From positions 1 to 51,484 of the forward strand of contig DASPIL010000084.1 in assembly GCA_035629175.1 (NCBI GenBank): a stretch of DNA of 51,484 nt, written 5' to 3'. The DNA comes from Verrucomicrobiia bacterium. Its GTDB lineage: Bacteria; Verrucomicrobiota; Verrucomicrobiia; Limisphaerales; DASXHY01. The notes beneath the pieces are model-generated. The model worked only from the letters and a program-made list of their open reading frames with translations, was not told the DNA's origin and searched no databases. Both the position numbers and the translations under genes were made by a program. This document shows, piece after piece, positions 1-17,657 of this stretch (its first letter is position 1; each line of letters starts with the position of its first letter).

Positions 1-47
1 TCTGCCGCCACTCTGTCACGAAGCTTCGCCGCTCCTCTGCACTGTAA

Positions 48-689
48 CGGGCCCGTCTTGTTTTTGTTGATCTTTGCATTGACCGCAACCTTAACCCATC
101 CCGGCTCGCTCAAGAAGGACGCCCGCCGCTTACCGCTTACGAAGCATCAGCACTGACAGATGAACTAAATTGCTTTTGTTGGCACGCCGTCGTGCATAGC
201 CGAAAAGAAGTTGAGAATTATTTGCTTCACAAAGCCGCTATAGCCCGCGCGATCACAAAAAAATCGGCAGAACGCTTGGACTCGGGATCAGCGGGTTTCG
301 CTGAGGATCGCATCGAACCTTTGCTCCTTGAGTTGACTGAAGGATTAAAGAACAAAGTGCAATCTCAGCTTGTCACCGCTCGTCAAGCATTTGAACGGCG
401 AATCCATCCTGGAACACATCCCAGCAATATTTCCGAAGCCGCCATGAATGAATTCGACGCTCAGTGGAGCGTTTGGGCCGGAAGGGTAAAGCTAGTATCG
501 GGAAAAGAAGTGCTCACGATGCTTAACCGCTATCTTCAGAGTGTAGGCCTGCCCGCCCTAACGCCGTTATCCATCATCGATGCTATGCAACGAAGCGACG
601 TCCCTCGGGAAATCGTTGAGATCATCGATAAAATCGCCGAGATGAAGACAACTCCTTTAGAAGAACAGCTCGATTACGAGCTTTCATGA
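48..689 (+). pseudogene. C-terminal remnant of an AAA/OLD-like ATPase
   Basis: The reading frame is open from base 48, after a TAA at 45-47, to the stop at 689. A GTG at 192 is the first conventional start, but the codons upstream of it also read like protein: a V-F-V-D-L-x-I-D-R-N stretch followed by the S-R-K-E-V-E-N-Y-L-L motif right after codon 192. That pattern (acidic loop, then 'rrEiENYLL') and the tail G-K-E-V-L…L-T-P…D-V-P-R-E-I resemble the C-terminal third of SMC-like AAA ATPases with a TOPRIM/OLD region, which are common in defence islands. No Walker motifs are present and no ATG start exists, so I infer a truncated remnant; the window edge prevents checking the 5' part. It could instead be a small intact hypothetical gene starting at 192. 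Confidence 0.45.
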
Positions 690-717: not shown

Positions 718-2379
718 TTAACGAATAACTTTGCTGCCCTTCGGGAGCAAATCACTATCTCTTTGGAAAAGGTCAGGCTTTCGTCGCAGTGTGATATCTG
801 GAGCCATTCGCGCTATAGCCTCGATGCGGCGGCCATTGATCGGGGTGGCTTCGTCCTCGATCTCCTTGAAATTTGCCACGACTTTGCGGAATGAGTCTGC
901 CACGGCGCTCTCGCCGAACACGCTGAAGGACTTGCTGCGATAATTTTGGTTCAGCATGAACATCATGCGCTGTAAATCAATGTAGTCCTCCACCGAGCCG
1001 TCATTCATTGGGAGGAAGGGGAACAGTTTGCCATTGAGCAAATGGAGATCGCGGACCATGCCGTCCGGCTCGCACCAGCCCCGCTGCTTGTAGTAGTCGC
1101 GGTATTTGTCGAACAGCTGTGTAGATGGCACGGGCGCAAACAGCATTGGGATGATCGAGCCGATCACATCGGATACGAACAACGCCGTTTGCACCACGTT
1201 GCTGATGCTCTCGCCTGGCAGGCCGTAAAGGCAATACCCGTTCACGTCCAGATGGCGCAATTCGAAACCCGCGCGCTCAATGTTTTTCGCCGCTTCGACA
1301 ACGTGCTTCAGCTTGACGTGTTTCCGGTTCAAACTAACGAGAATGTCGTCGTCCACGTTTTCAACGGGCAGGTAGATTTTTTGAAAATGTGAGGCTTTCA
1401 GCAAGTCGCACAACTCTTGCGAGCTGGCGAGGAAGCGCGTATCCAAACCCTCCGGCGCGTAGAGCCGCCACGGTTTCTTGGCATCCACGATTTTTCGGAG
1501 CAACGGAATGAGATTATCCTGAAATTTAATCAAGAGGAAATCCGCATAGAAAGCGAAGTCGCGGATGCCAAACCGCTCATGCTTGTCCTTCATCTCGGCA
1601 AAGATGTCATCCACAGACCGGAAGCGAACCTGCTGTATTCCGTTGTTAATGGTCTTGGCCGCGCAGTAGTGGCAGTTGTAGGGGCAACCACGACTCGGCG
1701 TGATGATGGCGTAAGTCGGTATGTTGCGATAAACCGTAAGGTCGGTCCACAGATCGTTGGCCTCGTGAACTTCGCCAGCCACGACGACGTCCGCGCCGGT
1801 ATAACGGGCAGCATGGTCGGGAGCGATGGACGGGTAAATGCCACCGATAATAATCCGCGGCCTCTTTCCCATCAACCGGCGAAGCCTTGTGATGAGGTCG
1901 CGGGTGCTTTCCCACCAGTAGGACATCACCGAAGCGATGTAAATTTCGTGCGGCGGATGCTTGGCAAGCCCTTTGGCCTTTACCCAGCGCTCAAACGCAT
2001 CCCACGTTTTGCCGAAATGATATTTGTGAAGCTCCAACGCCTCGCCGTCCTTTTCGATGCGATACGGCCGCGCCTTCGACGTCGGGCCAGACTGCTCGCC
2101 GTAGGCTTCATCGCAATGGATGCGATGCTTGGGGACGATCCGCTTGCTTTCCGCGTCGCCGGGATCGCCGGAGACGGGCGTCGCTTCCATGAAGTCGTAG
2201 AAATCAATATGCTTGTAACGGTTCTTCTTCAGCAGTGCCGCAATGCGCACCAACCCGTACGGCTGCGACCACTCAGCCCAATACTGCGTGTCATAAACTG
2301 GAGGGTTGATGAGCAATGCAGTCTTCCGGCGCGGATTGCCGTCCAGTGAACTTAATTGAAACTGACGATCAATTTTCAT
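718..2379 (-). CDS. B12-binding-domain radical SAM protein
   Basis: A 553-residue protein. The N-terminal part has the layout of a cobalamin-binding domain (L-L-I-N-P-P-V-Y at about 22-29, and G-G-I-Y-P-S…A-D-V-V-V-A-G-E-V-H near 178-203). The radical SAM core follows, with the cluster motif S-R-G-C-P-Y-N-C-H-Y-C (Cx3Cx2C) at about residues 229-239. The class uses a 4Fe-4S cluster and S-adenosylmethionine to make a 5'-deoxyadenosyl radical; B12 members often methylate or rearrange unactivated carbons. The substrate here is unknown. The ATG at 2379 lies inside the last codons of the upstream gene (11-base overlap), so translation is probably coupled to the HerA-NurA operon. It is the last gene of that operon. 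The family call is firm; the role in defence or modification is inferred from context only. Confidence 0.88.
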   Translation of the reverse strand: MKIDRQFQLSSLDGNPRRKTALLINPPVYDTQYWAEWSQPYGLVRIAALLKKNRYKHIDFYDFMEATPVSGDPGDAESKRIVPKHRIHCDEAYGEQSGPTSKARPYRIEKDGEALELHKYHFGKTWDAFERWVKAKGLAKHPPHEIYIASVMSYWWESTRDLITRLRRLMGKRPRIIIGGIYPSIAPDHAARYTGADVVVAGEVHEANDLWTDLTVYRNIPTYAIITPSRGCPYNCHYCAAKTINNGIQQVRFRSVDDIFAEMKDKHERFGIRDFAFYADFLLIKFQDNLIPLLRKIVDAKKPWRLYAPEGLDTRFLASSQELCDLLKASHFQKIYLPVENVDDDILVSLNRKHVKLKHVVEAAKNIERAGFELRHLDVNGYCLYGLPGESISNVVQTALFVSDVIGSIIPMLFAPVPSTQLFDKYRDYYKQRGWCEPDGMVRDLHLLNGKLFPFLPMNDGSVEDYIDLQRMMFMLNQNYRSKSFSVFGESAVADSFRKVVANFKEIEDEATPINGRRIEAIARMAPDITLRRKPDLFQRDSDLLPKGSKVIR

Positions 2380-3262
2380 TTGTGGCCTCTGATTTAATTA
2401 GCGGCAAACCAAGATTCGTAAGAACCTGCTTCCCGTCCACAACCTCGATCATCCGGCGGTTAACGATTTGGTGCAGACGTTCTCTTGGTGCTCGCGGAAC
2501 AAATGTCCTAGTGGACCTTTTCAAAAAGCACCTGAACGCCATCATTTCCGTTCCCTTATTCCCGGAATAAAAAATCGGCGGTTCGGAATCCGAGTCAAAT
2601 TGTGACTGCGCTGCCAGTTGTGCAATCAGGTTCATTACGTAAAGTTTGAGCCGTGCTTGCTCTTTCGGGTGGTTCAGGTATGCGTCGAGCACGCTGTCCG
2701 CAGAACGGCCAAACCGTTTCAAGTCTCTTCGGATTGTCATTAACGATTCCCGAACCTCGTGCTGGTCCACCTGATCCAAGTTGAAACTCAAGAGGAACAA
2801 GAACTCGCTTGCTCCAGCACCGGACTGTCGCACGAACACCTGCCGGATCGCCTCCAAGCGTTGGAGTTGGCCGGCATCTCGGTAAAAGAGACCGCCTGAA
2901 TAATCCAGCGACACGATGTCATACGGCCAGGTTGGGGTGCTGCCGAAGTGATCTTTCCCCGCGATGAGTAATTGGTCGATATCCCCCCTCAACAAACTCA
3001 ACTTGCTGGAAATCCCTAGTTTGAAGGCGTTGACCAAAAGCTCATTTTGGAGAATCCATTCACGGCCCGCTTCACCGCGCTCAACTGCCGTAATGCGTTC
3101 CAACAGAGGATTCCATTGTTCAACATCCTGGAGCGACGAAGACGGCAACCCAAAGTAACTCAAGCGACCAAGACGTGGCCCCAAGTGCTTGCGAATTGCT
3201 TCGCACTGAAGATCGCGAACGACCTGTTTGTTCGGCGTAAATGTCTGTGGCCGCTTTAGCAT
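2369..3262 (-). CDS. Putative Rossmann methyltransferase-like protein
   Basis: A 297-residue protein I cannot name. The N-terminal half reads like a class I methyltransferase fold: R-L-S-Y-F-G-L-P-S at about 33-41, A-V-E-R at 59-62, an L-L-R-G-D-I-D segment near 94-100, and Y-D-I-V-S-L-D-Y-S-G-G-L at about 114-125 in the place of motif IV. A helical region and a basic C-terminus follow. Canonical glycine-rich motif I (GxGxG) is not obvious, so it may bind a nucleotide or SAM weakly, or be a structural relative. Its ATG at 3262 overlaps the stop of the upstream coiled-coil gene, and its own end overlaps the radical SAM start. Both overlaps argue for a coupled operon. A three-Cys-motif-partner type methylase is a possible relative, not established. 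Confidence 0.7.
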   Translation of the reverse strand: MLKRPQTFTPNKQVVRDLQCEAIRKHLGPRLGRLSYFGLPSSSLQDVEQWNPLLERITAVERGEAGREWILQNELLVNAFKLGISSKLSLLRGDIDQLLIAGKDHFGSTPTWPYDIVSLDYSGGLFYRDAGQLQRLEAIRQVFVRQSGAGASEFLFLLSFNLDQVDQHEVRESLMTIRRDLKRFGRSADSVLDAYLNHPKEQARLKLYVMNLIAQLAAQSQFDSDSEPPIFYSGNKGTEMMAFRCFLKRSTRTFVPRAPRERLHQIVNRRMIEVVDGKQVLTNLGLPLIKSEATNEN

Positions 3263-3669
3263 GAAACCGCTTTGCGCAACGCCTCGTTGATTTTATGCAC
3301 TAATGCCTCGAAACGATCCTTTTCTCTCGCAAATTCCTCCCGAAGAACCGAAATAACTACCTCGTATACCTTCTTGGTTTTCTCGTCCATTGCGAGGTCT
3401 TGTCCAATGTCCACAAAGAGGGAATGACCATTACTTCCGGCTCTCAAAACCTGATGCAGTTTGCGTGCTCGGCGAACCAACCGTGTGGCGCGACGGATCA
3501 CACCGCCGTCTTTCTTTTTCGCCCGTTGTGACTTCGCCAGCCGTTTCGCTAAATCTTCCAGTACCTTCTGCACTTGGAAGTCTTTGTCCTCCCTGAGCGC
3601 GTTTTCCAGTTTGCGATCTCTTAATTCCTGCTCTGTCTTTGCGAGCAGTCTTTCGCTGCTGTCCACCAC
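3256..3669 (-). CDS. Coiled-coil protein, probable displaced tail of the GHKL ATPase
   Basis: A 137-residue, highly charged, mostly helical protein (D-S-S-E-R-L-L-A-K-T-E-Q-E-L-R-D-R-K near the start, then K/R-rich helices). Its first possible start is a GTG one base after the TGA of the GHKL ATPase gene. The same frame stays open for several codons upstream of that GTG and reads T-A-S-N-I-R-F-R-E-V-V-D, which continues the helical character. I therefore suspect this is the C-terminal part of the ATPase gene, separated by a one-base frameshift, rather than an independent gene. No good ribosome binding site at a normal distance is visible. If independent, it would be a small coupled partner protein. 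Its stop overlaps the next gene's ATG. Confidence 0.6.
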   Translation of the reverse strand: MVDSSERLLAKTEQELRDRKLENALREDKDFQVQKVLEDLAKRLAKSQRAKKKDGGVIRRATRLVRRARKLHQVLRAGSNGHSLFVDIGQDLAMDEKTKKVYEVVISVLREEFAREKDRFEALVHKINEALRKAVSC

Positions 3670-3670
3670 C

Positions 3671-4810
3671 TCACGAAACCGGATGTTGCTGGCTGTTCAA
3701 GTCCGCTTGCAGATTTAGTTTGGCTACCAAACCGCCGCATCGGTCGTAAAGACGACTCCGCGATTCGTTATCCTCAAAATCGGTTCGATCCGCCGTCGGT
3801 ACGACGCCGGCATCCAGCACATGAATTTCTCCAACGAAGTAAAAGGCGCGTTCTGGCGCAGCATGCCACACTGCTTTGCGCACGAGCATACTGTCTCCAA
3901 TCGCGATGTTGGACGTGCGAAAGTGGAGACCGCTGTGCGGGTGCCGTTTACCTTTACCCATATCTGTTCCATCGTTCGGGAACTGCCCCTTTTTCAAATG
4001 TTCACAGAACCAACCGTATGCGATCACTTCATCAGATGAACCCTCTTTGGCTAGGATGAGTTCAAACTGTGGATGCGACGTGTCTTTCAGGGCAGGTTTG
4101 TAGATGGGGCTGCCGTTCACTAAAATCGAGATTTCGAGAAAGCGTGGATCGACTTGGTGCAACCGCTCGCTGATCACTTTCCCAAACGAGAACCCTGGAT
4201 CGAACGGAATCGGAGCGGTCTGAATCAAGTATCCTCGAATCACGCTGTGGTCGACAAGTTGCTGCGCGTCCTTGTGAACGCCGTGCAACTCAACTACCGT
4301 ATAATGCGCGTCGGGTCGTTCGGCCCGTTCGGTCACGCGACTGTGCTCGCGCAGCAGTGGTTCTAGAGGCGGGTTCTTTTCTTTCCTCAGACGCGCCCGT
4401 ATGCCCGCAGCGTCAATTTCTACTTGATACGTCTTCGCCTCGCCAATTTTCGACGAGGTGACAATGAGGCGGTCACAAGCGCTGATCGCCGAGAATTTCC
4501 CAATGCCGCGAAAGCCAGCATGCGTTGTGGACTTCTTTTCCGAATAGCCGAGGTAGCGGTAGCGTTCGACTTCATTCCGTGACATTCCCACACCTTTGTC
4601 CGCGATGATCAATGATGCCGGCGATGAGGTTATCTCGATCGGATGGAGTGTCTCTCCCTTGTGCGTGCGTTTCAAATCCGCCAGGGCGTCATAGGCGTTT
4701 TGCACGAACTCCCGCAGGATGTGCTTTCGGTCGGGATACAAGCCGTGACTCAATGCTTCCAGTACCGACCCGTAAGCGAAGTGCTGTTCTTGCCTTTTGA
4801 CTTGTTTCAT
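3671..4810 (-). CDS. GHKL (Hsp90/MORC-like) ATPase
   Basis: The start is set at the ATG at 4810 (M-K-Q-V-K-R-Q-E), giving 379 residues; upstream in-frame codons overlap the methylase gene. The Bergerat ATP-binding fold is clear: R-E-F-V-Q-N-A-Y-D-A-L (E34, N38, D41), I-I-A-D-K-G-V-G-M (D71, G73, G75), and the lid motif G-F-R-G-I-G-K-F-S at 99-107. GHKL proteins such as Hsp90, MutL and MORC dimerise on ATP binding; MORC-type ATPases compact DNA and several bacterial defence systems use GHKL subunits. The protein ends abruptly at the TGA at 3671, and the adjacent frame continues as a coiled coil, so the natural protein may be about 540 residues. It sits 23 bases after the methylase gene. Confidence 0.85.
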   Translation of the reverse strand: MKQVKRQEQHFAYGSVLEALSHGLYPDRKHILREFVQNAYDALADLKRTHKGETLHPIEITSSPASLIIADKGVGMSRNEVERYRYLGYSEKKSTTHAGFRGIGKFSAISACDRLIVTSSKIGEAKTYQVEIDAAGIRARLRKEKNPPLEPLLREHSRVTERAERPDAHYTVVELHGVHKDAQQLVDHSVIRGYLIQTAPIPFDPGFSFGKVISERLHQVDPRFLEISILVNGSPIYKPALKDTSHPQFELILAKEGSSDEVIAYGWFCEHLKKGQFPNDGTDMGKGKRHPHSGLHFRTSNIAIGDSMLVRKAVWHAAPERAFYFVGEIHVLDAGVVPTADRTDFEDNESRSRLYDRCGGLVAKLNLQADLNSQQHPVS

Positions 4811-4833
4811 GGGTTGTATCTTCTGCTTGGTGT

Positions 4834-6117
4834 TCAGCTGAGTTCTTCCAGGGACGCCTTGATGTCGGCGACTTCGGATTTTTCCAAGCCCCAATACTCG
4901 GCGGCGAGTTTTAGGTTCTCGGCCTCCAACGCGGCCAGCGCGTCGGTGTTGGCCGCTGCGGTTGCCTCGTGCAACGCCTTGCTGTTGGCGGCGAGTGAAC
5001 GATGCAAATTTTCCTTCGGGTCAAATTTCCCGATGCGGATGTATTTCAAAATGTGTGGGCTTGGATGCAGCGCAACGTAGCCTCTGACAATGAAATTTGA
5101 GGGTGAAGAATTGAGCAGCGCGCAGAGGTAATGAGCCTCGTCAGCAGAGGCGCATTCAACAGTAACCAACGTGTGGTCAGGGACGGGAACTTTTTCGCCG
5201 ATCGGAGAACTGACTGCCACAATGAGTTCGTTGGCAACTTCCCGCCAACAGACTTTATGGTCTGCGAACGTGTAAGAGCCGACGTTGTAAACGGAGTAAA
5301 ACGGTGCGCGATCTGTGTCAAAGTAGAGTTTGAACCCGCTCCGACCACGAAGAATTTCTTCGAACCTCTTGAGGTAGGAATAAGTCTTCGGGGCTTTCGC
5401 CTGCATCTCGGTGACAGGAAATCCTTTGGCCGGATCTTCCGGATCGTGTGGAATTAGCACCTGATACACTGGCGAAGATTTCCACCTTTTGATATCTGCA
5501 CCCCGCAGAAGCGGAAACAGGAAGTCAGGCTCAATCGCCATGCTGACGTTCTCCACATCAATCTTCCCTCCGTCGTGCAAGTTATTAATTACGACGAGTC
5601 CATCCTTTCTCCGGGAAACTTCTTCAACCCAGTAAACGCCATTCAAATAGGTGCATGACCCCTTCCTGCCCTTATAGGTCGAAGGTCCGACAATGCATTC
5701 GACATGTGCGAGAGCTTTGCGTCGCCCCGTAATCCAAGGAGATGTGCGCTTCTTGAGGTCGAGTGGGCGCGCAACCCATTGGTAAAACGTCAATCTTTCC
5801 ATCGCCTCGTCGTGATCGGCTTCCGTTGGGATGTTCCCACGCTGAGTCTTTTTCCAAAAATTGTATGGGACGGGGTATTCAGTGGCCGCACCTTTTTGAA
5901 GTATAAGGACTGCAGTTCTGTTCGTTGCGCCTTCGAAGCATTGCACACGACTAAAGTCATCTACCTGGAGCACGCGCAGGTGTTCGCCGTCACCAAGCTG
6001 AAGTCGTCGAAACCCTTCGCCACCACCTTCCGTTTTGAAGATGGATTGCGTTATAACGAACCCAAGTTTTCCTTTGGGTTTGAGATACTTGTCCGCTGAC
6101 ACATAGAGAAGCAGCAC
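4834..6117 (-). CDS. N6-adenine DNA methylase, C-terminal part (frameshifted)
   Basis: This 427-codon frame is the C-terminal half of the methylase encoded upstream. Its first Met at 6117 is internal to the fold; upstream codons in this frame read D-D-D-F-S-V-L-L-L-Y-V-S-A-D-K-Y-L-K, then L-G-F-V-I-T-Q-S-I-F-K. This is the strand/helix that follows the NPPW motif in Eco57I/TaqI-like N6-adenine methylases. The remainder has features of their target-recognition and C-terminal helical region: L-F-P-L-L-R-G-A-D-I-K-R-W and Y-L-C-A-L-L-N-S-S-P-S-N. Adding one base to the C run at 6137-6140 joins both frames with no lost residues. I regard it as one gene with a single-base shift, whether real or an assembly error. 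It ends 23 bases before the GHKL gene. Confidence 0.82.
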   Translation of the reverse strand: MLLLYVSADKYLKPKGKLGFVITQSIFKTEGGGEGFRRLQLGDGEHLRVLQVDDFSRVQCFEGATNRTAVLILQKGAATEYPVPYNFWKKTQRGNIPTEADHDEAMERLTFYQWVARPLDLKKRTSPWITGRRKALAHVECIVGPSTYKGRKGSCTYLNGVYWVEEVSRRKDGLVVINNLHDGGKIDVENVSMAIEPDFLFPLLRGADIKRWKSSPVYQVLIPHDPEDPAKGFPVTEMQAKAPKTYSYLKRFEEILRGRSGFKLYFDTDRAPFYSVYNVGSYTFADHKVCWREVANELIVAVSSPIGEKVPVPDHTLVTVECASADEAHYLCALLNSSPSNFIVRGYVALHPSPHILKYIRIGKFDPKENLHRSLAANSKALHEATAAANTDALAALEAENLKLAAEYWGLEKSEVADIKASLEELS

Positions 6118-8108
6118 CGAAAAGTCATCATCGCTGCCCCGGACCGCGCGCGTAATCCTTTGTGTTCAAACAGTCGGTATTTCGTCCAAACCGAAGAAGT
6201 CCGCTGCCTATATTCGTCAGGTAAATTTGACCAATGTATCCAAGGCGGATTGCCGGCGATGCGGTCGAACTGTGGCTGGAACAGCGGAGCGAAAGCGTTC
6301 TTGATAATGCGAGCCCAGATGCCGTTGATCTTCTGCCGTTCCAACTCGCGTAACTGGACGAACAATTCCTCGACGATAGCAACGTCGCGGGCGTCCTTTT
6401 TGGGATCGAGCGGAAACTTATTGCAGAGCGCAGCGGTGAAGGCGCCCTGGTGCGAGTCGTTTTTGACATGTTCCTCCAACAGGTTTGCCAGTTCGTCAAT
6501 GTAGTCCGCCTTCACGAGAGTGCGCGGCAAGGCGAACTCCCCGACGGAAGTCATGAACAGAATTTTGCCAACCTTGTCCAATTCCTCACCAGCGGACGGC
6601 GTCAGCACGGAGTCGGCGAGATAAACCGGGATGTCAATTTCGCCTTGGATTTCATCGAGCAAATCGCCCAGCGCGAGCAGGTAGTTGGTGCGGGCGCTGA
6701 TGACGGCGAGTGGATTTAGATCGTAGCCGACGACGTTGGCGAGGATGTAATCCAAAAGCTGCCGTCGGGTGATTTTCTTCTGCGGCAGCAGCACGTCCCG
6801 CGCATAGAGGCGAATGTCGCGGATGTGGAGAACGACGAACGTGCCTGAACCGCACGAAATATCCGCCAGCCGCTCCGTCGGCAGACGCGGGGCGCGATCC
6901 GGCGGGCCACCGTGCAACTGATTGAGCAACTGCGTGTCGAGCCAGTCGGGGGTGTAGTATTCGCCGAGATCGTGCCGCAATTCCTGCGGCATGAGGTTTT
7001 GGTAGAGCTTCTTCAGCAAGTCGCGCGTGCCGTCAGGATCGGTGTCAAGCGTGACGAACGAATAATTGGCGAGTTGGTGCATCACACCGCGTAACGACTG
7101 GTCAACTTCATGGGTCCAGTCTTCGAGATACCAGACGAAGAAATCACCTTCCAGGAAATTGCGGATGCCGAGATGCCGGAAGATGCCGCCTTCCTCCATG
7201 TTGCGGAGATAGCCTTGCAAACCTGTGGAGTCCATGCCGATGGCCTGCGCGAGCGTGACCGGTTCTTGTGCGGCGATCCGCGCAACTTTGCCTCGGGCAT
7301 AAAAGTTGACAATCTGCACCGCCAACAGTTTGATAAACGTGGCGTAGTAGGTGTGGATGGCGAAGAATAGCTTGAACGGCTGCAGCTTGTCGCGTGCTCC
7401 AGCACGAACGGCGTAGAGTCGGGCCAGGGCTTCTACATCCAATTTAGGGGAGTTAGGCTCGTAGCCACAAATTTCGCTGAACGTGCGCGCCCATTGCTGG
7501 TAAAGGGCGTTGATCTTTGGATTTTTTGATGTGGTGAGAACTTGATAAAATGCAGCGACACATTTACGTGACGCGGGAGTATTTTCACCGAAGTCGCGCA
7601 AGAGGTTTTCCGGCGTAGTGGCGAGTTCGGTCTGAAGTGCGGCGAGATAGTTTAGAAATCGTTCGCAGGAATAGACATCCACAGGAACAGGCGGCTCGAC
7701 ATGCCAGACCCCCTCACGTTGCTGGAGGAAGATGAAGTAACCACCGTCGCAAACGACGCCGGCGTAACGCTCCATCTTGTGGCGTTCGCGCCGGTGCAAT
7801 CCACCGATGTAATCTTTTGCCTGCTGAATCGCGTGCCGGTTGTTTCCGTGTTTGTTCGATGGTTTCAGGAATCCAGGGCGCTCGTATTCAATGACGAGAC
7901 GGTTATAGACCGTGTCGGCGCGACCTTCGATCAATGTGACTTCGTCACGCGGCTGGATGGGTGCGCCAATGGATTGGGCTGCCTCCGCGATAGCCGCTTG
8001 AAAAGGGATGCGAAACTCGGCCTCGTTCGCAGCGCCTTCGGCTGCGGCGAGAGTCTTTTCGGCGAGTTTCTTTGCGACTTCCTGAAACGAGATGTCGTGT
8101 GCTGCCAT
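6051..8108 (-). CDS. N6-adenine DNA methylase with N-terminal nuclease-like region
   Basis: A 685-codon frame. Residues 1-130 resemble a PD-(D/E)xK-like domain: E-G-R-A-D-T at 61-66 and V-I-E-Y-E-R at 72-77 (ExE rather than the usual ExK). A helical connector follows. The methylase core has G-E-Y-Y-T-P at 382-387, SAM-binding motif I D-I-S-C-G-S-G-T-F at 416-424, and catalytic N-P-P-W at 620-623. This layout is that of type IIG/PglX-like enzymes that methylate adenine N6 in DNA. After about residue 655 the frame runs into unrelated sequence and stops at 6051, while the proper continuation lies in the adjacent frame. The start at 8108 is 3 bases after the HerA stop. Expected intact length is about 1080 residues. 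Whether the nuclease-like region is active is unknown. Confidence 0.85.
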   Translation of the reverse strand: MAAHDISFQEVAKKLAEKTLAAAEGAANEAEFRIPFQAAIAEAAQSIGAPIQPRDEVTLIEGRADTVYNRLVIEYERPGFLKPSNKHGNNRHAIQQAKDYIGGLHRRERHKMERYAGVVCDGGYFIFLQQREGVWHVEPPVPVDVYSCERFLNYLAALQTELATTPENLLRDFGENTPASRKCVAAFYQVLTTSKNPKINALYQQWARTFSEICGYEPNSPKLDVEALARLYAVRAGARDKLQPFKLFFAIHTYYATFIKLLAVQIVNFYARGKVARIAAQEPVTLAQAIGMDSTGLQGYLRNMEEGGIFRHLGIRNFLEGDFFVWYLEDWTHEVDQSLRGVMHQLANYSFVTLDTDPDGTRDLLKKLYQNLMPQELRHDLGEYYTPDWLDTQLLNQLHGGPPDRAPRLPTERLADISCGSGTFVVLHIRDIRLYARDVLLPQKKITRRQLLDYILANVVGYDLNPLAVISARTNYLLALGDLLDEIQGEIDIPVYLADSVLTPSAGEELDKVGKILFMTSVGEFALPRTLVKADYIDELANLLEEHVKNDSHQGAFTAALCNKFPLDPKKDARDVAIVEELFVQLRELERQKINGIWARIIKNAFAPLFQPQFDRIAGNPPWIHWSNLPDEYRQRTSSVWTKYRLFEHKGLRARSGAAMMTFRCCFSMCQRTSISNPKENLGSL

Positions 8109-8111
8109 TGA

Positions 8112-9842
8112 TCAAGTCCCCCGCTGACGTTGGAGATAGGCGGGCCGGGGAAAAACTATTTTCACGGGCTGCCGATAGACGGCGTGCGTGACAATCAACT
8201 CACCTTTGCCAAGCCGAGTCAGATTCATTTTCAAATCGTCGTCGAGGAAACGATAGTCTGGCGTGGCAATCTCGCTCGCGCCGGTGCGGCCGAGAATCTT
8301 GGTAGCGCAGTTGCCCGTAACACGCGAGTGAACGGCGGACATGAATTGCTGGGCGGAGAACAGCACAACACCAAGCGAGCGCCCGCGTTCTGCGATGTCG
8401 AGCACCTGCTCAAGGATCGGCGAACCGCGTGTGCCAGCGGGGGCGTATTTGTTCAGCTCGTCCACGAAGAAGATGACCTTTTCCGGGATCGGCTTCTTGC
8501 TTGTGCGGTTCTCCGGGTCTTCCGCCTTGAGTTCGTAAACGGTGCGCAAGACGTCGCCGAACACGAGCTTTTGTTCCTCATCATTGAGACGGGCGATGTC
8601 CACGACGTAAGTGTTGCCGCCCTCAATTTCGCGAATCTGCTCGGCAAGATTGAGCTCATTCCGGGCACGGGCGTTAGCGAACAAACCCGTGCTTCGGGTG
8701 CGGATAATGCGGCGCAAGTGGCGGCGAAGTTTACCGATCGTGGAGGCGTAGTGATCGCCCCACTTCGCCGTCTTGCCGTCTTTCACGAGCGGCTCGCCAT
8801 TGAGTAAATTGTCCCAACTGTTGCAGTTCTTGAACGATGGCTCACGATTCATCAAACCCTGCATGACATCGCCAACAAGTGCATCCATCGAGCCCGACTG
8901 GTCGGAAATATCCGACAGCATCAAATCGAGCTTATCGGCTGCGTCCTGCAACGAATAGGCGAACGTTTGATAGCCGGACGCCGGTTCAATAAAGCTATTC
9001 GGCATTCCCGGCTGATTGCTTCGCGGCAAGAGATAGCGGACGTTCTTGAAGGGCCGCGCTTCCATGCCCATTGCTTCCCACATTTCGTTTTGCTCGACAG
9101 TGGGATTCTTATCCGGGCGCTGGTCAATCTGGAGCAAGTCGCCCTGCTTCACATTGAGAATGATGACGGCGATCTTATCGCTCAATGGCACGCCATCCTC
9201 GTCTTTCGACTTCTCCGCCTTTTGCAGAATGGATTGGAGCATGAACATGGCGAACGAGGTTTTGGTCGCCAGACCGCTGATGCCGGACATGTTGATGTGC
9301 GCGCCTTCCGGGCCGAGAATAAACTCCTGGTCAATATAGGCGACGGTGGACGCGCCGTTGCTCATTTTGATCAGACCGGCGGGGATTCGGTTTTTCTCGG
9401 CCATCGTGTCAATGCCAAGCGCCTCGTGAATGCCATCCGGCGAGGCGAACTCGACAAGCTGGTCGTTCTGGACCGGCATGTAGATTTCGCCGTTGTTGGA
9501 AAGGATGTTCACCTTCGCGACGTTTGTGCCGACGCGCGGGGTGTTGATGTTGTTGTCGTTCACGTCGCCGAAATTAGAAGAAGCAAAATTGGCGAGGTGA
9601 TTGGGCGAATCGGTTTTGTGCTCAATCGTGGTGACCAAGCCGTAAGAGCGTGACGGATTTTCTGTGGGCTTGCCATCGACGATGGCGCGGCCAATGTGTT
9701 TCACCTGAACGATGTCGAAGGGGTTGACGATTTTCTCCGGTGCGAGCCAAAAATTGAATTTGTCGCTGGAATTGGCGTCCCGCTCGGTCGCGGACGTTTT
9801 GCCGATCACAACGGGTTGGGGTTGGTCTTTTTCGTCAGCCAT
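8112..9842 (-). CDS. HerA-type DNA-translocating ATPase
   Basis: A 576-residue protein with HerA/FtsK-superfamily architecture. A short N-terminal barrel region (about 28-75 and 100-180) precedes a P-loop G-I-S-G-L-A-T-K-T-S at 187-196 and Walker B V-I-F-F-V-D-E-L-N-K-Y near 450. A C-terminal sensor region contains R-V-T-G-N-C-A-T-K-I-L-G-R-T. HerA forms hexameric rings that pump DNA and classically pairs with the nuclease NurA, whose gene lies just upstream (4-base gap). The P-loop has T-K-T where most relatives have G-K-[ST]. In bacteria, HerA genes next to DNA methylases usually lie in defence islands. I infer it moves invading or damaged DNA into the nuclease. Confidence 0.9.
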   Translation of the reverse strand: MADEKDQPQPVVIGKTSATERDANSSDKFNFWLAPEKIVNPFDIVQVKHIGRAIVDGKPTENPSRSYGLVTTIEHKTDSPNHLANFASSNFGDVNDNNINTPRVGTNVAKVNILSNNGEIYMPVQNDQLVEFASPDGIHEALGIDTMAEKNRIPAGLIKMSNGASTVAYIDQEFILGPEGAHINMSGISGLATKTSFAMFMLQSILQKAEKSKDEDGVPLSDKIAVIILNVKQGDLLQIDQRPDKNPTVEQNEMWEAMGMEARPFKNVRYLLPRSNQPGMPNSFIEPASGYQTFAYSLQDAADKLDLMLSDISDQSGSMDALVGDVMQGLMNREPSFKNCNSWDNLLNGEPLVKDGKTAKWGDHYASTIGKLRRHLRRIIRTRSTGLFANARARNELNLAEQIREIEGGNTYVVDIARLNDEEQKLVFGDVLRTVYELKAEDPENRTSKKPIPEKVIFFVDELNKYAPAGTRGSPILEQVLDIAERGRSLGVVLFSAQQFMSAVHSRVTGNCATKILGRTGASEIATPDYRFLDDDLKMNLTRLGKGELIVTHAVYRQPVKIVFPRPAYLQRQRGT

Positions 9843-9846
9843 AAAG

Positions 9847-10989
9847 TTACGTCAGTGGTTTGCGCTTCGGCCAGCGGATGGAGGCTAGTAAAACAGTTTC
9901 TGTGAAAAAATTGGCCTTGATGACGCGCTCAGCGGTGAACACGGGATAAAGGTGGGCGTGCCAGCGTTTGTCCAAGCCGTGCGGTGTGACGTTCCGCTCG
10001 GCGACCAACGCGGAACTCAAGCTGTCCGCAAGCTCGGCGGGGACCGGCTTGCCATCAGGTGTAGGAACTTCAACTTTGACCACACCCATCAACGGATAAT
10101 CTACCTCCCCTTGCTGGCGCAGCCGGACATACCAGAACGCGACTTTGCCGCCGTGCGCAAAAAAGGCTGCCGTGCGGCAGCCGTATTCGAGATTCATCAG
10201 CAGTCGGCTGATGTCTCGGCGTTCCGTGCCCTTGTTGCCCTTACGAATTGAAAAAGTCGGAGTGCGGTCAAACGACTTGGCGACGCCAACCGTGCGGGGC
10301 AACTCAATGAACTCGCCGCGTCGCACGCCGCCGTCAATAATGGTCCATTCGTCCGGCCCTCGACGCTCCGCAAACTCAGTGATGAGACGAGTTTCCAGCA
10401 AGTGCATTTCAAAACGCGCCTTCGCGCCAGCCTTGTCGCGGGGGTCTTGGCGCGTCTTGCTCAAATCGTCCGGCACTTCGACGTCAATGACGCGGAACAG
10501 TTTGCTTTCCAGCTTGCGAAGTTCGGCGAGCAGGGATTCAGAAATGCCGCGCCCGCCAGTGTGAGGGACGAGCAGAAGAATCTGTCTTTCAAACTTCGCG
10601 ACCTCCAACGACCCGTCCTGCTTGCGGTGCACGATGGCCGAACCGATTTGAGTCAACTCCAGCGGATAGGAGCGATCCCCTTCAATGACTGTGCCAAGAA
10701 AATACGTTTTGATTGAACCATCGCAGAAATACCGGAAGACATGCTTTTCGTCGCGGTAAACCGGGGGCGTCTTTCGGTAGAGGTTCCTCCAATCCGGCAC
10801 GGGAGACTCCGCAAAATCTTGGAAACCATCCTGGGCGTCAGTTTTTGAGCCAAAGAATCGGTCGTCTGCTTCCTCGACGTCGGGTTTTGCCATGTCCTCA
10901 AAGGCGCCGCCAGTGGCAGGCAAAACACTTGCGTTCGAACCGATAAGTTCGATTGCAGGACCGAGAAAACTCAATGGCGAGGTCATCAT
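9847..10989 (-). CDS. NurA-type 5'-3' nuclease
   Basis: A 380-residue protein whose motif order matches NurA. Acidic motif I is R-Y-F-C-D-G-S with D90; I-I-D-G-G around D219 follows; then the V-G-V-A-K-S-F motif at 234-240; aromatic/basic W-Y-V-R-L at 286-290; and H-L-Y-P-V-F-T-A-E at 346-354, the family's C-terminal signature. NurA is a Mn-dependent nuclease that works in complex with HerA. The gene is the first of the operon and begins ATGATG, so either Met could be the start. The N-terminal 60 residues are low in recognisable structure. The call rests on motifs and on the adjacent HerA; overall similarity to archaeal NurA would need a profile search. Confidence 0.82.
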   Translation of the reverse strand: MMTSPLSFLGPAIELIGSNASVLPATGGAFEDMAKPDVEEADDRFFGSKTDAQDGFQDFAESPVPDWRNLYRKTPPVYRDEKHVFRYFCDGSIKTYFLGTVIEGDRSYPLELTQIGSAIVHRKQDGSLEVAKFERQILLLVPHTGGRGISESLLAELRKLESKLFRVIDVEVPDDLSKTRQDPRDKAGAKARFEMHLLETRLITEFAERRGPDEWTIIDGGVRRGEFIELPRTVGVAKSFDRTPTFSIRKGNKGTERRDISRLLMNLEYGCRTAAFFAHGGKVAFWYVRLRQQGEVDYPLMGVVKVEVPTPDGKPVPAELADSLSSALVAERNVTPHGLDKRWHAHLYPVFTAERVIKANFFTETVLLASIRWPKRKPLT

Positions 10990-11200
10990 TTAAGCCCGGC
11001 GAACGCTAAACAAATTGATATCGAATGCAAAGGGCGGATTGAAATGCCGTGAGTCAACTCATAACGCCCTGCTCCTCGTCAACAGCCCTTCGCACCTGTT
11101 TGTGTTGGTGGTTGTGTTGGTTCTTGTTCGCCATTTCTCGCCCTGTTTCACCTTGTTTCAAACGAAGACCGAAAAACCGTCCAATCTCAACAACCCCAAC
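10990..11200. other. Operon leader region, no gene
   Basis: This is the upstream region of the NurA-HerA operon on the minus strand, between it and the tRNA terminator. I see no convincing open frame on either strand. It contains T/G-rich stretches (for example TGTTGGTGG-like repeats around 11100-11140) but no clear promoter I would defend. The operon promoter must lie here or read through from the tRNA. Confidence 0.5.
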
Positions 11201-11232
11201 AAAAACGGCCCTGAAACGTGAGTTTCAGGGCC
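11201..11232 (-). terminator. Intrinsic terminator of the tRNA gene
   Basis: There is a perfect 11-bp inverted repeat GGCCCTGAAAC / GTTTCAGGGCC at 11207-11217 and 11222-11232, with a 4-base loop. On the minus strand it is followed by GTTTTTG. It lies 7 bases past the tRNA CCA end, so it should stop tRNA transcription and insulate the downstream operon, which reads in the same direction. Confidence 0.85.
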
Positions 11233-11238
11233 AGAAAT

Positions 11239-11315
<77 letters not shown>

Positions 11316-11329
11316 TTCCAAGGGAGCTG

Positions 11330-11358
11330 TATATTGCCTCAGGTTTGCCGCAGTGCAA
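11330..11358 (-). promoter_or_regulatory. Sigma-70-type promoter of tRNA-fMet
   Basis: On the minus strand there is TTGCAC (plus-strand 11353-11358), a 17-base spacer, then AATATA (11330-11335), about 15 bases before the mature tRNA 5' end. Spacing and position fit a -35/-10 promoter for the tRNA gene. Confidence 0.55.
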
Positions 11359-11724
11359 GAGCTTTCTGTAAAATCGTCACTTTCCAGTTCACCGCAACGC
11401 GTTGGAACAACGATCTTCACTGGCTTTGACGAGCGAGGACGAAGAGCAGGGCTCGGAATACACAACGCATGAGAATCCCGGACGTCTCGTTCCCGCGGAT
11501 TGAACGGCAAGCGTCACTCGCGTTGCGCAAGCATGCGTCGGGAACTGAAAGCCTCGAGCAATTCGCCCGCAGTGATTCACCACCTGCACATGAAACCATC
11601 TGACTTCCGAGCGAAAAAATAAGAGGGGTGCTGTTTTTCAGACCCTCTCTTACCTGCCAAAGACGATTTCCGCCCGGCAACTCAGGCTCTTTCTGCCGAG
11701 CGCAGGATGCGAAGCAAAGGAAAG
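11359..11724. other. Intergenic stretch without a gene
   Basis: About 370 bases between the tRNA promoter and the terminator of the small hypothetical gene. Frames here are short, rich in rare combinations and not supported by any recognisable protein. I see no further signal. Confidence 0.5.
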
Positions 11725-11764
11725 GCTGGAACCAGGACAAGCCATCCTTGTTCAAGGTTCCAGC
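11725..11764 (-). terminator. Hairpin terminator after the small hypothetical gene
   Basis: An inverted repeat GCTGGAACC / GGTTCCAGC extends inward through GGACAAG / CTTGTTC to a CCAT loop. On the minus strand it is followed by TTTCCTTT. It lies 19 bases past the stop of the gene at 11784. Confidence 0.55.
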
Positions 11765-11783
11765 GTGAGTTCCGCGCCATCCA

Positions 11784-12158
11784 TCATGATGCCGGCGCTT
11801 CGGTTTCCTTCTTGGGCCGAGAGCCGGTGAGTTCGAATCCATAGTCGCCGAGCTTCGCAGTCTCGTTGCGGTACATCCCGACAAGGATGTCCCGCGAACG
11901 ACGCACGAAGTCCGACACTCCGGCTGGATTCTCAATCAGAATGCGGCGTCGTTCCAGAACCTTGTCCAGCTCGACATACAATTGATTGATCTTGTCGTCC
12001 ACCTCCTTCGCTTCCTTGATCAGCGGTTCGATTTTGTCCCACTCCAGGATGTTCAGAGGCGATTGCTTGCCGTTTTCCTTGTGCCCGCCGGCAATTGCCT
12101 GGGAGAGCGCAATGATTGCGGTGGGTTGTTTGGGAATGTTAATGCGTGTTTTAGCCAT
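11784..12158 (-). CDS. Hypothetical small helical protein
   Basis: A 124-residue protein starting at the ATG at 12158 (M-A-K-T-R-I-N-I-P-K-Q-P); an in-frame ATG nine bases earlier, at 12167, is also possible. The N-terminus N-I-P-K-Q-P-T-A-I-I-A-L-S-Q-A-I is followed by a long predicted helical hairpin (E-V-D-D-K-I-N-Q-L-Y-V-E-L-D-K-V-L-E-R-R-R). The C-terminus is polar and disordered. Proteins of this general shape ('pxxpxxxxxLAxAIxxKH') recur in Verrucomicrobia and Bacteroidetes genomes without known function. There is no signal peptide and no membrane segment. It is monocistronic with a hairpin terminator. The function is unknown. Confidence 0.7.
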   Translation of the reverse strand: MAKTRINIPKQPTAIIALSQAIAGGHKENGKQSPLNILEWDKIEPLIKEAKEVDDKINQLYVELDKVLERRRILIENPAGVSDFVRRSRDILVGMYRNETAKLGDYGFELTGSRPKKETEAPAS

Positions 12159-12550
12159 GTTTATCACCTGCCTTCTAGTTTGACGTTATATCGTCTTTAT
12201 TGAAGACGACCGGCGAATCTGAAGGCATCAACTGTGCCAGAATAAATATGCGAATCATGTGCATTATATCCCTAAATGGTGGGGTCATAAAACGTGAGTT
12301 ATAGCGCGTCGCAACCGTTTTTGTTACAAAGACTTGAACTTCATTATTCGGTTCCTGACCCAGTTGGGAGGTTTCGAGGAAAGATGTCAGCCCGAGAGGG
12401 GCTTTCGAGTTACCCTGACTCAGTGGTAGATGCCTGGGCTTAATTGTGAGACACAGCGGCATTTCCACATCCCAGAGCGTCCAATGCGTGGCGAGCCCCG
12501 ATAAACGGATGCCGGTCTCATAATCCTAAAAACGCGAGAGAGAATTCGAG

Positions 12551-12910: not shown

Positions 12911-13066
12911 CGCCTGCGACGCACGAGCGGGAGGGGGGTTGGGGGAGAGGGTGCTCGGATTCGTTCTGCAGCGCGGCATCGTTCCCAACTTCAAAGACTC
13001 CTCCTCTCCCCGGCCCTCTCCTCCACTCCGAGTGGAAGAGAGGGAGTTCGAATGGGACCGCACAGG
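12911..13066. repeat. Hairpin-bearing direct repeat, copy 1
   Basis: This copy starts CGCCTGCGACGCA and ends with GAGTTCGAATGGGACCGCAC. Internally, a GGGGGAGAGGG-type tract in the first quarter is the complement of the TCTCCCCGGCCCTCTCC tract in the third quarter, so a single strand could fold back on itself. All six frames are open by composition only and give S-P-R-P-S-P-P type peptides, a well-known misannotation pattern of such elements. It is an interspersed non-coding element, not a gene. Confidence 0.8.
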
Positions 13067-13106
13067 CAATTGTTTGGGCGCTCGGCCCACCGCATCATTC
13101 TCCCCT

Positions 13107-13262
13107 CGCCTGCGACGCAGGAGCGGGAGAGGGGCCGGGGGAGAGGGTGCTCTGATTCGTCTTGCTGGCGCGGCATCGTTCCAATTTCAAAGGCTCCTCC
13201 TCTCCCCGGCCCTCTCCTCCACTCCGAGTGGAAGAGAGGGAGTTCGAATGGGACCGCACGGC
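13107..13262. repeat. Hairpin-bearing direct repeat, copy 2
   Basis: The second copy is 196 bp downstream of the first, in the same orientation, and almost identical over its last 70 bases (CTCCTCTCCCCGGCCCTCTC and the GAGTTCGAATGGGACCGCAC end). The first half differs by scattered substitutions and a few bases. The G-rich arm (around 13127-13151) and C-rich arm (around 13197-13218) are complementary. The tandem placement suggests local duplication of a mobile or replicating intergenic element. Confidence 0.8.
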
Positions 13263-14923: not shown

Positions 14924-15735
14924 CGACCCAGAACAGAACGCCAACGCGCGGCGTCGTACCCGGGGTGAACCAACGGAGAACGTTTGAGGGGTTCACGTTG
15001 ATTGAACTGCTTGTGGTTATCGCAATCATCGCGATTCTTGCCTCGCTGATTCTGCCCGCGCTGGCACGCGCAAAATCGGCCGCTCACCGCACGCGGTGCA
15101 TCAGCAATCTTCACCAACTCGGAATCGCGGCGCAGCTCTACTGGGACGACCACCAGGGTCGATGCTTTCGGTGGCGCGAGTCGCCTCTCAGTGAACTCTA
15201 CTGGATCGGTTCGATTGGATCAGGCAGAGAAGGCGAACGTCCTTTTGATCCGCGCCCGGGCAAACTCTTTCCTTATCTAAAGGGGCGCGGAGTGGAAGCA
15301 TGCCCATCGCTTCAGGATTGCCTCCCTGAATTCAAACGAAAGGCAGGCGAACTGACTTACGGGTACGGCTACAACCGCGCGCTCTCCGAGGATTCGCCTG
15401 CGCGCGCGGACGTCCGCATATTGCAGATCACGCGCCCGTCCGAGTTCCTCGCGTTCGGGGACGCAGCCCAGGTCAACGACTTCCAGCCTCCCGCGTCGCG
15501 GACAAACCCGATGCTCGAGGAATGGTATTATCTGAGTTACACGTCGAACATGACCGCGGCGGCCTATTACCCGAATGGGCACTTCCGTCACAGTCGCCGC
15601 GCAAACGGCGTTTTCGTTGATGGACACGTCGCCATGGAAAACCCGGTGCCGGATTCCATTGACCGGAAACTGCCGCGCCAGGTCGTGGGGCAGTTTCGGC
15701 CGGAGATCCTGTTGCTTCGCGGAAACGCTCAGTGA
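14920..15735 (+). CDS. Type II/IV pseudopilin-like protein
   Basis: A 271-residue protein with the prepilin leader [14 protein letters not shown] at about 25-38, followed by a hydrophobic helix to about 48. This is a substrate for prepilin peptidase, which cuts after the Gly and methylates the next Phe. The C-terminal part carries [12 protein letters not shown] and F-V-D-G-H-V-A, hallmarks of the large 'prepilin-type N-terminal cleavage' family expanded in Planctomycetes and Verrucomicrobia (PulG-like, 'H-x-G' type). It starts inside the stop of the secreted protein (ATGA) and so is in the same B12-controlled transcript. Its stop overlaps the opposite-strand cytochrome gene by 7 bases. Confidence 0.92.
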
Positions 15736-17483
15736 GGGAGTGAATCGGGAACGCGCGGTACCGGACGATCTCCTGCTGGCGTCGAATCCTGCAGGGCGTC
15801 GTGATCCAGCGGATGTTCCTCCTGCTGCCAATGCTCGGAAACCTTCCCGTCCCAGCACGCGAGGTTCACGGGATAGACCTCGGGATCGAAGATCACGTGA
15901 TAGAAGTGCCAGACGACGATCGCGAGACAGGCGAGAATCGCTTCGTAGTAATGGATCGTCAGCGCCACATCGACAAGCCAGCGCGGCAGAAATTGCGTCA
16001 CATCAATTTTGAACCAGATCATCAATCCCGTCACTCCCATGATGATGGTGCCCCAGACGACGGCCCAGTATTCCATTTTCTCAGCGTATCCGAATCGGCC
16101 GATGAGCGGCTTGGAGCGGCTCAAGCCGAACAGATAACGGACCGAACCGAAAACGTCTGAAATGTCACGCATCGTGGGAAACAGATCCCTGACAAGCCTT
16201 CGCCCGTCGCGGGTTGTGGCGAGATAGATGATGTGATAGAGCCCGACAAGCAGCATGATCACACCCGCGACGCGATGAGTCCAGCGGCGCACCGGTTCGC
16301 TGGAACCCATCATGCGTGCCAGCCATGAGTCCGGAAATTTGAGCGCGAATCCGGATAAGGCAAGGACGATGAAGCTGATGGCAAGAAGCGCGTGCTGCCA
16401 GCGTTGCGACAGTGTCATTCGCGTGATCGGGCGGCCGCCGCCCCGCAGGTGGGCAGCGATCTTCCTGTAAAAGAGGAGCCCGTTGTGCACGACCATCCCG
16501 CCGATCACGACGAAGATCATGATCAGGTAGATTTTTCGCACCCACCAGTTCGCCTGGCTTGAAATGTCCGAAGCGCTGGTGTCGGACGCGATATCAACAT
16601 GGATCTTGCTGAGTGCGAATTTCTGATTTGCGCCTGGATGACATTTGCCGCACGTGGCCACCAGGTGATCGGGATGAATCGTTGAGTCAGGATGGGAGGA
16701 CGGAAGGATCTTGTGATACCCGTGGCAGCTCCCGCAGTTCGCTGCCAATGTCGACCCGTATTGCACTGCCAGGCCGTGGTAGCTGTCAAAGAATGTGCGA
16801 ACGCGATCCTTCGGAAGGTTGTATCGGGTGTTCAGGCGTTCGGACGCGTGGCAATTACTGCAGATATCCTGCGAAATGGTAAGCCCTGAAGTTTGCTTCA
16901 ATCCCTGGATGCGATGTTCGTAATGGCAGTCAGTGCAGGTGGGGGCATCGCGTTCACCGGCCGCCGCGGCCTTTCCATGAATGCTTGAAGAGACGTCCGC
17001 AACCTCCTTTTCATGGCAGGCACCGCAGGTTTCGCCCTGCCGCGAGAAATGCAGCGGCGAATGAACCGAAGTATGCGGCAGCACGTTGTGCGCATCATGG
17101 CAATCGGTGCAGCCCGGCGCCTGCAAATCTCCTGACCGCGCGGCAATGCCGTGGACGCTGGCTCCATAACTCTCCGTCTGGAGCGCATGACAAGATGCGC
17201 AATCGACCGGCCTGGCGGACTTGCCGTCGTCGGGATGATCACCGCTGATGTCGCTGTGGCAACTGATGCACGAGTTCGTGGTGTGCGCAGACAGTGCGAG
17301 TTTCGACTGGTCAACGAACAACGAGATTGCCCGCCCCGCGGTGTTCGTCCTGAACAGCGTCTGGTCTGAATGACAGTCAAGACAGTCGCTGTCCTTGAGA
17401 GCCCCCAAAGAACTGGATGAGATTGAGAAGGTTAGCGTTGCGAACCACGCCAACAGCACTGCAAGTCTGAACCGGATAACCAT
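15729..17483 (-). CDS. Nine-haem cytochrome c / cytochrome b fusion
   Basis: A 584-residue protein. A signal peptide or anchor (about 1-27) is followed by nine CxxCH motifs (CLDCH, CISCH, CASCH, CTDCH, CGACH, CTDCH, CSNCH, CGSCH, CGKCH), which should bind nine c-type haems in the periplasm. From about residue 315 there is a membrane domain of at least five helices with histidines in W-Q-H-A-L-L, T-H-R-V-A-G, G-L-Y-H-I-I and T-I-H-Y-Y-E…W-H-F-Y-H-V-I. This is the pattern of the b561/thiosulfate-reductase-type cytochrome b. It most likely takes electrons from quinol through b haems to the c haems. It is a paralogue of the next gene upstream, with two fewer haems. Substrate and partner are unknown. 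Confidence 0.9.
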
Positions 17484-17637: not shown

Positions 17638-17657
17638 CCGCTCCCCACCTTGCGCGA

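Follow-up and report, generated by a model that had tools for sequence, protein, structure and literature searches.

Contig DASPIL010000084.1 of a Verrucomicrobiia bacterium (assembly GCA_035629175.1), referred to here as the window and analyzed over its full 51,484 nucleotides, carries an operon in which genes for a NurA-family nuclease and a HerA-type pump ATPase are followed by those for a type IIG restriction-methylase, a GHKL ATPase, a 297-residue protein and a B12-type radical SAM enzyme. We take this operon to be a restriction-modification-like system of the TdtA/NurA family carried on an island, with a probability of roughly one in two. The case is built on the identities of the proteins, the conserved order and strand of their genes among relatives, the grouping of those relatives in a HerA phylogeny, and the observation that radical SAM enzyme and second DNA methylase did not share a locus in the sample.

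From these parts we infer a role in restriction. The type IIG enzyme would methylate DNA and cut or nick it at its own site, while a hexameric HerA pump would feed DNA from exposed ends into NurA for degradation. Self and non-self would be told apart by modification of host DNA, through the IIG methylase and, we propose, through the radical SAM enzyme as well; the GHKL ATPase, together with the coiled-coil tail and the 297-residue partner, may clamp DNA or serve as a checkpoint and in this way license cutting. Such a scheme appears to fit the parts, and by analogy the TdpAB structures may be taken as a precedent: the TdpABC system ties a HerA-like pump and a NurA-like nuclease to DNA modification by phosphorothioation. 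Further points in favor are the likeness of GHKL to the BbrUII/HgiDII restriction enzymes, the DGQHR genes next to GHKL-radical SAM on plasmids, the restriction or candidate defense genes that adjoin some relatives, and the tRNA-linked signs of an island.

Layout of the operon

The window is an entire contig (C84) of a 5.41 Mb genome in 108 contigs. The original prediction, made from the letters alone, had described seven tightly packed minus-strand genes at 718–10989. The coordinates and the packing stand, but the count does not: eight open reading frames (ORFs) make up six genes, the IIG and GHKL genes each being interrupted. Transcription runs from NurA through HerA, the N- and C-terminal parts of the IIG enzyme, GHKL, a 137-residue ORF and the 297-residue ORF to the radical SAM gene:

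9847–10989, minus strand: NurA-family nuclease, first gene, 380 residues; assigned by profile and fold
8112–9842, minus strand: HerA/FtsK pump ATPase of the TdtA-like family, 576 residues; gap of 4 bases after NurA
6051–8108, minus strand: ORF for the N-terminal part of the IIG enzyme, 685 residues; gap of 3 bases after HerA
4834–6117, minus strand: ORF for the C-terminal part of the IIG enzyme, 427 residues; overlaps the N-terminal part by 67 bases
3671–4894, minus strand: GHKL ATPase (MutL/MORC type); likely start ATG at 4810, gap of 23 bases from that start
3256–3669, minus strand: 137-residue ORF, predicted coiled-coil tail of GHKL; gap of 1 base after GHKL
2369–3262, minus strand: 297-residue protein (P297); overlaps the 137-residue ORF by 7 bases
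718–2379, minus strand: B12-type radical SAM enzyme (rSAMb), 553 residues; overlaps the 297-residue ORF by 11 bases
11239–11315, minus strand: tRNA-Met(CAT), found by ARAGORN; the operon lies on its 3' side

The overlaps of 7 and 11 bases among the last three ORFs suggest translational coupling there.

Identities of the encoded proteins

The nuclease and the pump are both borne out as originally predicted. A profile of the window's NurA family (A5, 57 sequences) reached Deinococcus radiodurans NurA (7f6d_H, E 1.9e-5), and the AlphaFold model (predicted local distance difference test score, pLDDT, 90.8) has as fold neighbors, here always those listed by VIA-align, 7f6d_G (Z 20.0), 1zup (Z 17.9) and the archaeal Sulfolobus solfataricus NurA 2ygk (Z 15.3). 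G91 and D219 are invariant and D90 is near-invariant across the 57 sequences; Pfam's own NurA model missed the window protein. For HerA, profile A1 reached D. radiodurans HerA (7f6d_B) at E 2.6e-58, a comparison by sequence profile only. A Walker B motif of the (V/I)DELNKY type is present in 89 of 90 HerA sequences, as is, again in 89 of 90, an atypical Walker A motif, GISGLAxKTS, that is without the usual second glycine. The window thus holds a pump–nuclease pair in which both families retain conserved motifs.

What had been described as an N6-adenine methylase with a nuclease-like N-terminus is indeed a methylase, but judged by profile and motifs it is the bifunctional type IIG restriction-methylase, and its gene is frameshifted. 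Two ORFs in series match consecutive parts of the PADLOC REase_MTase_IIG profile PDLC03630 (positions 6–646 and 656–1099 of 1100; E 5.7e-197 and 3.3e-128). The nuclease motif GRAD...IEYERPG, as found in Thermus scotoductus (L024; such numbers denote loci examined below), and the methylase motifs CGSGTF and NPPW can all be seen, but there is a break in the reading frame between the two ORFs. The T. scotoductus relative aligns across both halves at 41–46% identity, and in tblastn every one of the five intact relatives tried switches frame near 6126–6162. The break may be real, an assembly error or phase variation; because of it, the window copy of the operon may be inactive, switched off or damaged. 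A second broken copy, interrupted in another place, was seen in a close relative whose IIG gene has an in-frame stop (L016, 8188–11439).

The GHKL ATPase of the original description stands (PF13589, E 4.1e-12), although its coiled-coil tail occupies a separate ORF. Residues of the N, G1 and G2 boxes are invariant among five sequences; residues 44–212 resemble the NCBIfam model of the BbrUII/HgiDII restriction enzymes (E 5.4e-13, below the model cut-off), and the ATPase part is weakly like TmtA in PADLOC. The start that fits the relatives is the ATG at 4810. Those relatives are mostly a single protein of about 510–600 residues, and the 137-residue ORF corresponds to positions 417–523 of the 526 in the GHKL profile (11 bits, in a single-sequence search); this ORF is probably the C-terminal tail, split off in the window. 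The 297-residue protein that follows appears to be the partner of a GHKL subfamily. Among the loci then examined its relatives occur in L021 and L075 only, each directly behind a GHKL gene, and in an unrooted GHKL tree (n=16) the three GHKLs linked to it split off with support of 98/96, under a long-branch warning. The family gives a weak match to NF047698 in three of three members, far under the cut-off; the window protein has no PDB match at E <= 10 and, among 387 genomes of the phylum, occurs only in its own, and P297 was not equated with any named family.

The predicted B12 radical SAM enzyme was confirmed by a match to PF04055 (E 5.2e-17), with a B12-binding domain at E 8e-6, under the Pfam cut-off, and a CxxxCxxC cluster motif. 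Its model (pLDDT 71) has AprD4 (Z 19.8), TsrM (Z 18.8), MgmA (Z 18.2) and also CysS among its fold neighbors. The cluster motif, the radical SAM core and a B12-type domain at the N-terminus, taken from sequence and model, together mark it as a putative B12-type enzyme. The window enzyme itself gave no match in plasmids, and a scan of the viral collection with rSAMb gave no relative.

Conserved modules in distant genomes

HerA is found in 7 of 288 genomes of a phylum sample, the window's own included, and NurA stands beside it in the other six. When species genomes were searched more widely with a profile made from six HerA sequences, at least 516 relatives were confirmed. The 80 best of them and four more from a viral-contig scan make up the 84 HerA-anchored loci surveyed here; a scan of the viral collection with the window HerA alone gave no relative. 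Loci were classed by hits above 40 bits on the same strand and within 9 kb, using profiles built partly from the same loci, among them MT410, a second DNA methylase distinct from the IIG enzyme. NurA lies upstream of HerA in 82 of the 84 loci, at 60 bases or fewer in 76 and at 1113 in the widest case, and when either strand was allowed every partner hit (226 of 226) fell on the HerA strand. The conserved co-occurrence across distant genomes that the original prediction had proposed as a check is therefore present, with gene order conserved as well. A chance arrangement is unlikely, because the modules are conserved in other phyla.

Two main kinds of locus emerge. NurA-HerA-GHKL-radical SAM accounts for 33 of 84, and NurA-HerA with an IIG enzyme and/or a DNA methylase for 37 (IIG only, 17; IIG with the second methylase, 14; second methylase only, 6). 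The remainder comprises IIG with radical SAM (4), IIG with GHKL and radical SAM (1), GHKL only on a cut contig (1) and loci with none of these (8). For the 44 loci whose flanks were ample (8 kb or more upstream, 7 kb or more downstream), the counts are 20 GHKL with radical SAM, 9 IIG with methylase, 7 IIG, 4 methylase, 2 IIG with radical SAM and 2 with none. A HerA tree (90 rows, built by a quick method, with long-branch warnings) splits the GHKL-radical SAM class from the IIG/methylase class. The window HerA falls in a clade of eight (support 95) with L014, L015, L016, L018 and L021, which have IIG with radical SAM, and with L017 and L019, both short contigs. All instances of the rSAMb family behind NurA-HerA-IIG, five of 84 loci plus the window, lie in this one clade.

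The exact six-gene set did not hold up as a unit. It is rare, a near-identical set being found in one of the 84 loci, whereas smaller modules are common, namely NurA-HerA, IIG (alone or with the second methylase) and GHKL-radical SAM. That nearest architecture (L021, Caldisericales) reads NurA-HerA-IIG-spore photoproduct lyase-like radical SAM-GHKL-297-residue protein-radical SAM-radical SAM. Its additional lyase-like enzyme lies at 7015–8076 (TIGR04070, E 2.9e-10), and at 10885–12291 is a 468-residue radical SAM paralogue that has lost its cluster cysteines.

Could two independent systems, an IIG-NurA-HerA unit and a GHKL-297-residue-radical SAM unit, simply share an operon? Each does occur alone: the former in the 17 IIG-only loci and the 14 with MT410, the latter, without HerA, in 12 of 12 plasmid records and 13 of 78 viral-collection loci. 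Yet the recurrence of rSAMb behind NurA-HerA-IIG within a single HerA clade, and the overlaps in the last three ORFs with their suggestion of translational coupling, argue against it, and we judge this explanation improbable. Even less probable in our estimation is a DNA repair operon, in which NurA-HerA would resect ends, the radical SAM enzyme would reverse a lesion in the manner of spore photoproduct lyase and GHKL would act like MutL. The additional lyase-like enzyme of L021 lends it some color, as does the reported part of archaeal HerA-NurA in DNA end resection, which PMC12977600 itself doubts; against it stand the patchy distribution seen in the phylum sample, the exchange of parts with IIG enzymes and methylases, and the fact that no operon protein matches Rad50 or Mre11.

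Exchange of the radical SAM enzyme and the second methylase

Radical SAM and MT410 genes occur together in none of the 76 classified loci, MT410 being present in 20 and radical SAM in 38 (Fisher p 6e-8, uncorrected for kinship). GHKL and radical SAM, on the other hand, travel together: 34 of these loci have both, 37 neither, four radical SAM alone and one GHKL alone, on a cut contig. In the 33 of 84 loci that combine NurA-HerA with GHKL-radical SAM, neither IIG nor MT410 lies within 9 kb on the HerA strand, so that the radical SAM enzyme is the sole candidate modifier there among the families profiled. That position, with its replacement of the second methylase, is the strongest hint that it acts as a modifier.

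The GHKL-radical SAM pair is also found elsewhere. The same 12 plasmid records match both families, and none of the 12 has a HerA match (E limit 1e-20). In the plasmids inspected, a gene of the DGQHR family, to which DndB and DpdB belong, precedes radical SAM-GHKL in four of four, and a PIN-like gene is near in three of four; DGQHR genes also occur in three NurA-HerA-radical SAM loci (L011, L077, L084). In the viral collection, the best 80 of 347 radical SAM relatives gave 78 loci, of which 11 have GHKL, four NurA-HerA-GHKL, two DGQHR with GHKL and one DGQHR.

A bolder proposition, which we hold only tentatively, is that of a widespread, unnamed restriction-modification class in which the radical SAM enzyme, with GHKL and sometimes a DGQHR or ParB-like protein, marks DNA, with destruction of unmarked DNA left to a NurA-HerA pump or a PIN nuclease; the window would then be a bridge form that has kept its IIG methylase. 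The mark would perhaps be a C-methyl or another C- or S-based group. Were this true, a DNA-modifying radical SAM enzyme inside restriction systems would amount to a new route of self-marking. With at least 516 HerA relatives at one genome per species, and 33 of 84 loci of the GHKL-radical SAM kind, an uncatalogued system for immunity or DNA marking may be spread over many species of several phyla.

Other arrangements were seen along the way. In L120, L126–L128 and L130, genes of about 450–494 and 333–344 residues precede radical SAM-GHKL with no NurA-HerA nearby, possibly forming a further defense or modification cluster; L130 has a DGQHR gene between the two-gene set and radical SAM-GHKL, and in L127 the larger upstream gene encodes an SNF2 helicase by Pfam and the smaller looks ParB-like by eye. 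Two viral-collection contigs (L134, 6300–10600; L135, 7962–10591) have two tandem radical SAM genes, preceded in L134 by two proteins without a Pfam match that appear RAMP-like by eye, an impression only. Marinitoga camini virus 1 (L106, 4936–8762) has a phage NurA-HerA, with a radical SAM profile match on the opposite strand.

Restriction or DNA donation

The original prediction knew of no named system with this exact set. None matched, but a named relative exists: the tdtA operon, carried by ICETh1 of Thermus thermophilus HB27, comes closest, and in it the IIG-NurA-HerA part is already known. According to PMC5365140 and PMC7767461, that operon runs Tth111II/TthHB27I-NurA-TdtA-methylase. In a competence-less background, transjugation was abolished in a tdtA mutant, fell 4–5 orders in a nurA mutant and fell about 3 orders in the IIG mutant (PMC5365140), while the methylase had a minor effect on DNA donation (PMC7767461). 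PMC5365140 also reports that T. scotoductus DSM 8553 has a tdtA-like cluster. This is the strain of L024, which has IIG-NurA-HerA and a HerA of the same family, 56% identical to that of the window; it is through this strain that the window HerA is assigned to the TdtA family.

The window resembles ICETh1 in that NurA immediately precedes a HerA from the family to which TdtA belongs (gap 4), that the operon includes a type IIG enzyme, and that it is positioned at a tRNA 3' end, with a partial tRNA repeat on another contig. It differs in that the IIG gene stands behind HerA instead of before NurA and is frameshifted, that the 410-residue N4/N6 methylase is missing (no hit of the MT410 profile at E <= 1e-5), that GHKL, the 297-residue protein and radical SAM are added, and that no integrase was seen. 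The window as a complete ICETh1 member is ruled out by the absent methylase and the changed order.

The operon might nonetheless be a DNA-donation element of the ICETh1 kind, in which HerA would export host DNA that IIG has nicked and NurA has trimmed, serving gene transfer and the spread of its own island. The requirement for the ICETh1 operon in transjugation (PMC5365140) speaks for this, as do the IIG-NurA-HerA set of L024, in a strain with a named tdtA-like cluster, and the tRNA location with its partial copy. The published transjugation model, however, does not accommodate the GHKL-radical SAM class, and the transfer role has been tested only in naturally competent Thermus. Of five integrase matches in the genome, none is on C84 or C1, although C84 breaks off next to the operon. 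We consider donation unlikely.

Several observations nevertheless weigh against the restriction-modification-like system that we prefer. Chief among them, the role shown for the sole tested relative, ICETh1, is DNA donation rather than defense, its tdtA, nurA and IIG genes being needed for that purpose. The frameshift in the window's IIG gene also counts against it. The exclusion of MT410 by radical SAM follows clades of the HerA tree, which implies few events and an overstated Fisher value, and two of the 78 viral loci do combine radical SAM with an MT410-like gene. A further 58 of the 78 have no other profiled module nearby; radical SAM relatives thus also occur outside the system, which weakens strict coupling. 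By their titles, the nearest B12 radical SAM structures act on small molecules or proteins and not on DNA, and the RNA-acting MiaB comes only lower among the fold neighbors. Low G+C, too, extends into the 2 kb beyond the tRNA (0.537), and is accordingly a weak island sign. The defense or modification role originally proposed thus fares unevenly: a restriction-like role fits the parts, but the shown role of the named relative is donation, and modification by the radical SAM enzyme stays a proposal. Restriction and donation may both apply, because a pump for restriction can be put to use in transfer, and the bridge architecture, by linking the window to the tested Thermus element, makes defense versus donation directly testable.

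Comparison with other systems

Among pump–nuclease systems, TdpABC of Thermus (PDB 8wet/8wfd, TdpAB) shares a NurA-like nuclease with the window (Z 14.0 to 8wfd_G), whereas profile A1 reached no TdpA-named chain at E <= 0.1, making the pump at most distantly related. HerA capture systems, DndFGH, BREX-related capture, Sir2-HerA and HerA-DUF4297 likewise couple a HerA-type pump to a nuclease, sometimes with DNA modification, but their nucleases differ from that of the window. The available portions of PMC10853773 and PMC12839542 contain no mention of NurA or GHKL; radical SAM is mentioned twice in the former, concerning DndC, and not at all in the latter. MORC/paraMORC and BbrUII/HgiDII share with the window a GHKL ATPase with a C-terminal extension in a restriction-modification setting. 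Unlike the window, MORC/paraMORC are mostly paired with SF2 helicases or nucleases, according to the accessible part of Iyer 2008 (PMC2292703), in which HerA occurs zero times.

The original prediction that hallmarks of BREX, DISARM and Dnd are absent agrees with what PADLOC and NCBIfam returned, with no convincing match among the operon proteins. BREX is rejected for want of a PglZ or BrxC match in the nine proteins scanned, and DISARM and Dnd for want of a full gene set; the exceptions are a weak methylase-domain likeness to PglX and a sub-threshold DndE match (E 0.035) in the neighboring orf192. MADS shows a weak, partial likeness only (window methylase to mad2, HerA to mad8) and is rejected, its other genes being unmatched in the same databases. 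The GHKL N-terminus is weakly like TmtA of Tiamat, whose models are far longer (1302–1782 positions). Pfam, NCBIfam and PADLOC gave no system-naming match for the NurA, GHKL and radical SAM proteins of the window or L010, and, judged by title or abstract start, none of the papers that PMC searches listed described a NurA-HerA-GHKL-radical SAM system, though publication elsewhere is possible.

Genomic setting

Roughly 250 bases separate the start of the operon from the 3' end of the tRNA-Met gene, a possible integration site. One further genome match to the 3' part of this tRNA (57/60, no 5' half) lies at C1:8180–8239, where ARAGORN finds no tRNA, and is possibly a remnant of an integration event; a HipA-like gene, recognized by eye, stands directly before it (L101). 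The operon side has a G+C of 0.540, against 0.586 for the remainder of the window. A dispersed repeat of about 140 bp sits at four contig ends (window 1–150, C1:2–144, C93:1–139 and the end of C29, which holds only its first 28 bases) and breaks the assembly beside the operon. C84 and C1 are not claimed as one island, as both start with this repeat, which is also at C93 and C29.

Among seven hand-picked large downstream neighbors of relatives, chosen with no control set, three gave strong PADLOC matches, two to type IV restriction enzymes (L063, L070) and one to PDC-S06, and a fourth was weak; a candidate defense ATPase (L097) and a Schlafen-type protein (L080) are among these neighbors. On the right side of the window, nine of ten large genes scanned match ordinary families, including cytochromes, polysaccharide export, a family 9 glycosidase and repeat proteins. 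To the right of the tRNA region, at 12911–13259, repeats of 59 and 79 nucleotides each occur in two copies 196 bases apart, and three adjoining multihaem cytochrome genes (cytochrome c7/c3, b561 and NapC-type) lie at 15729–21371.

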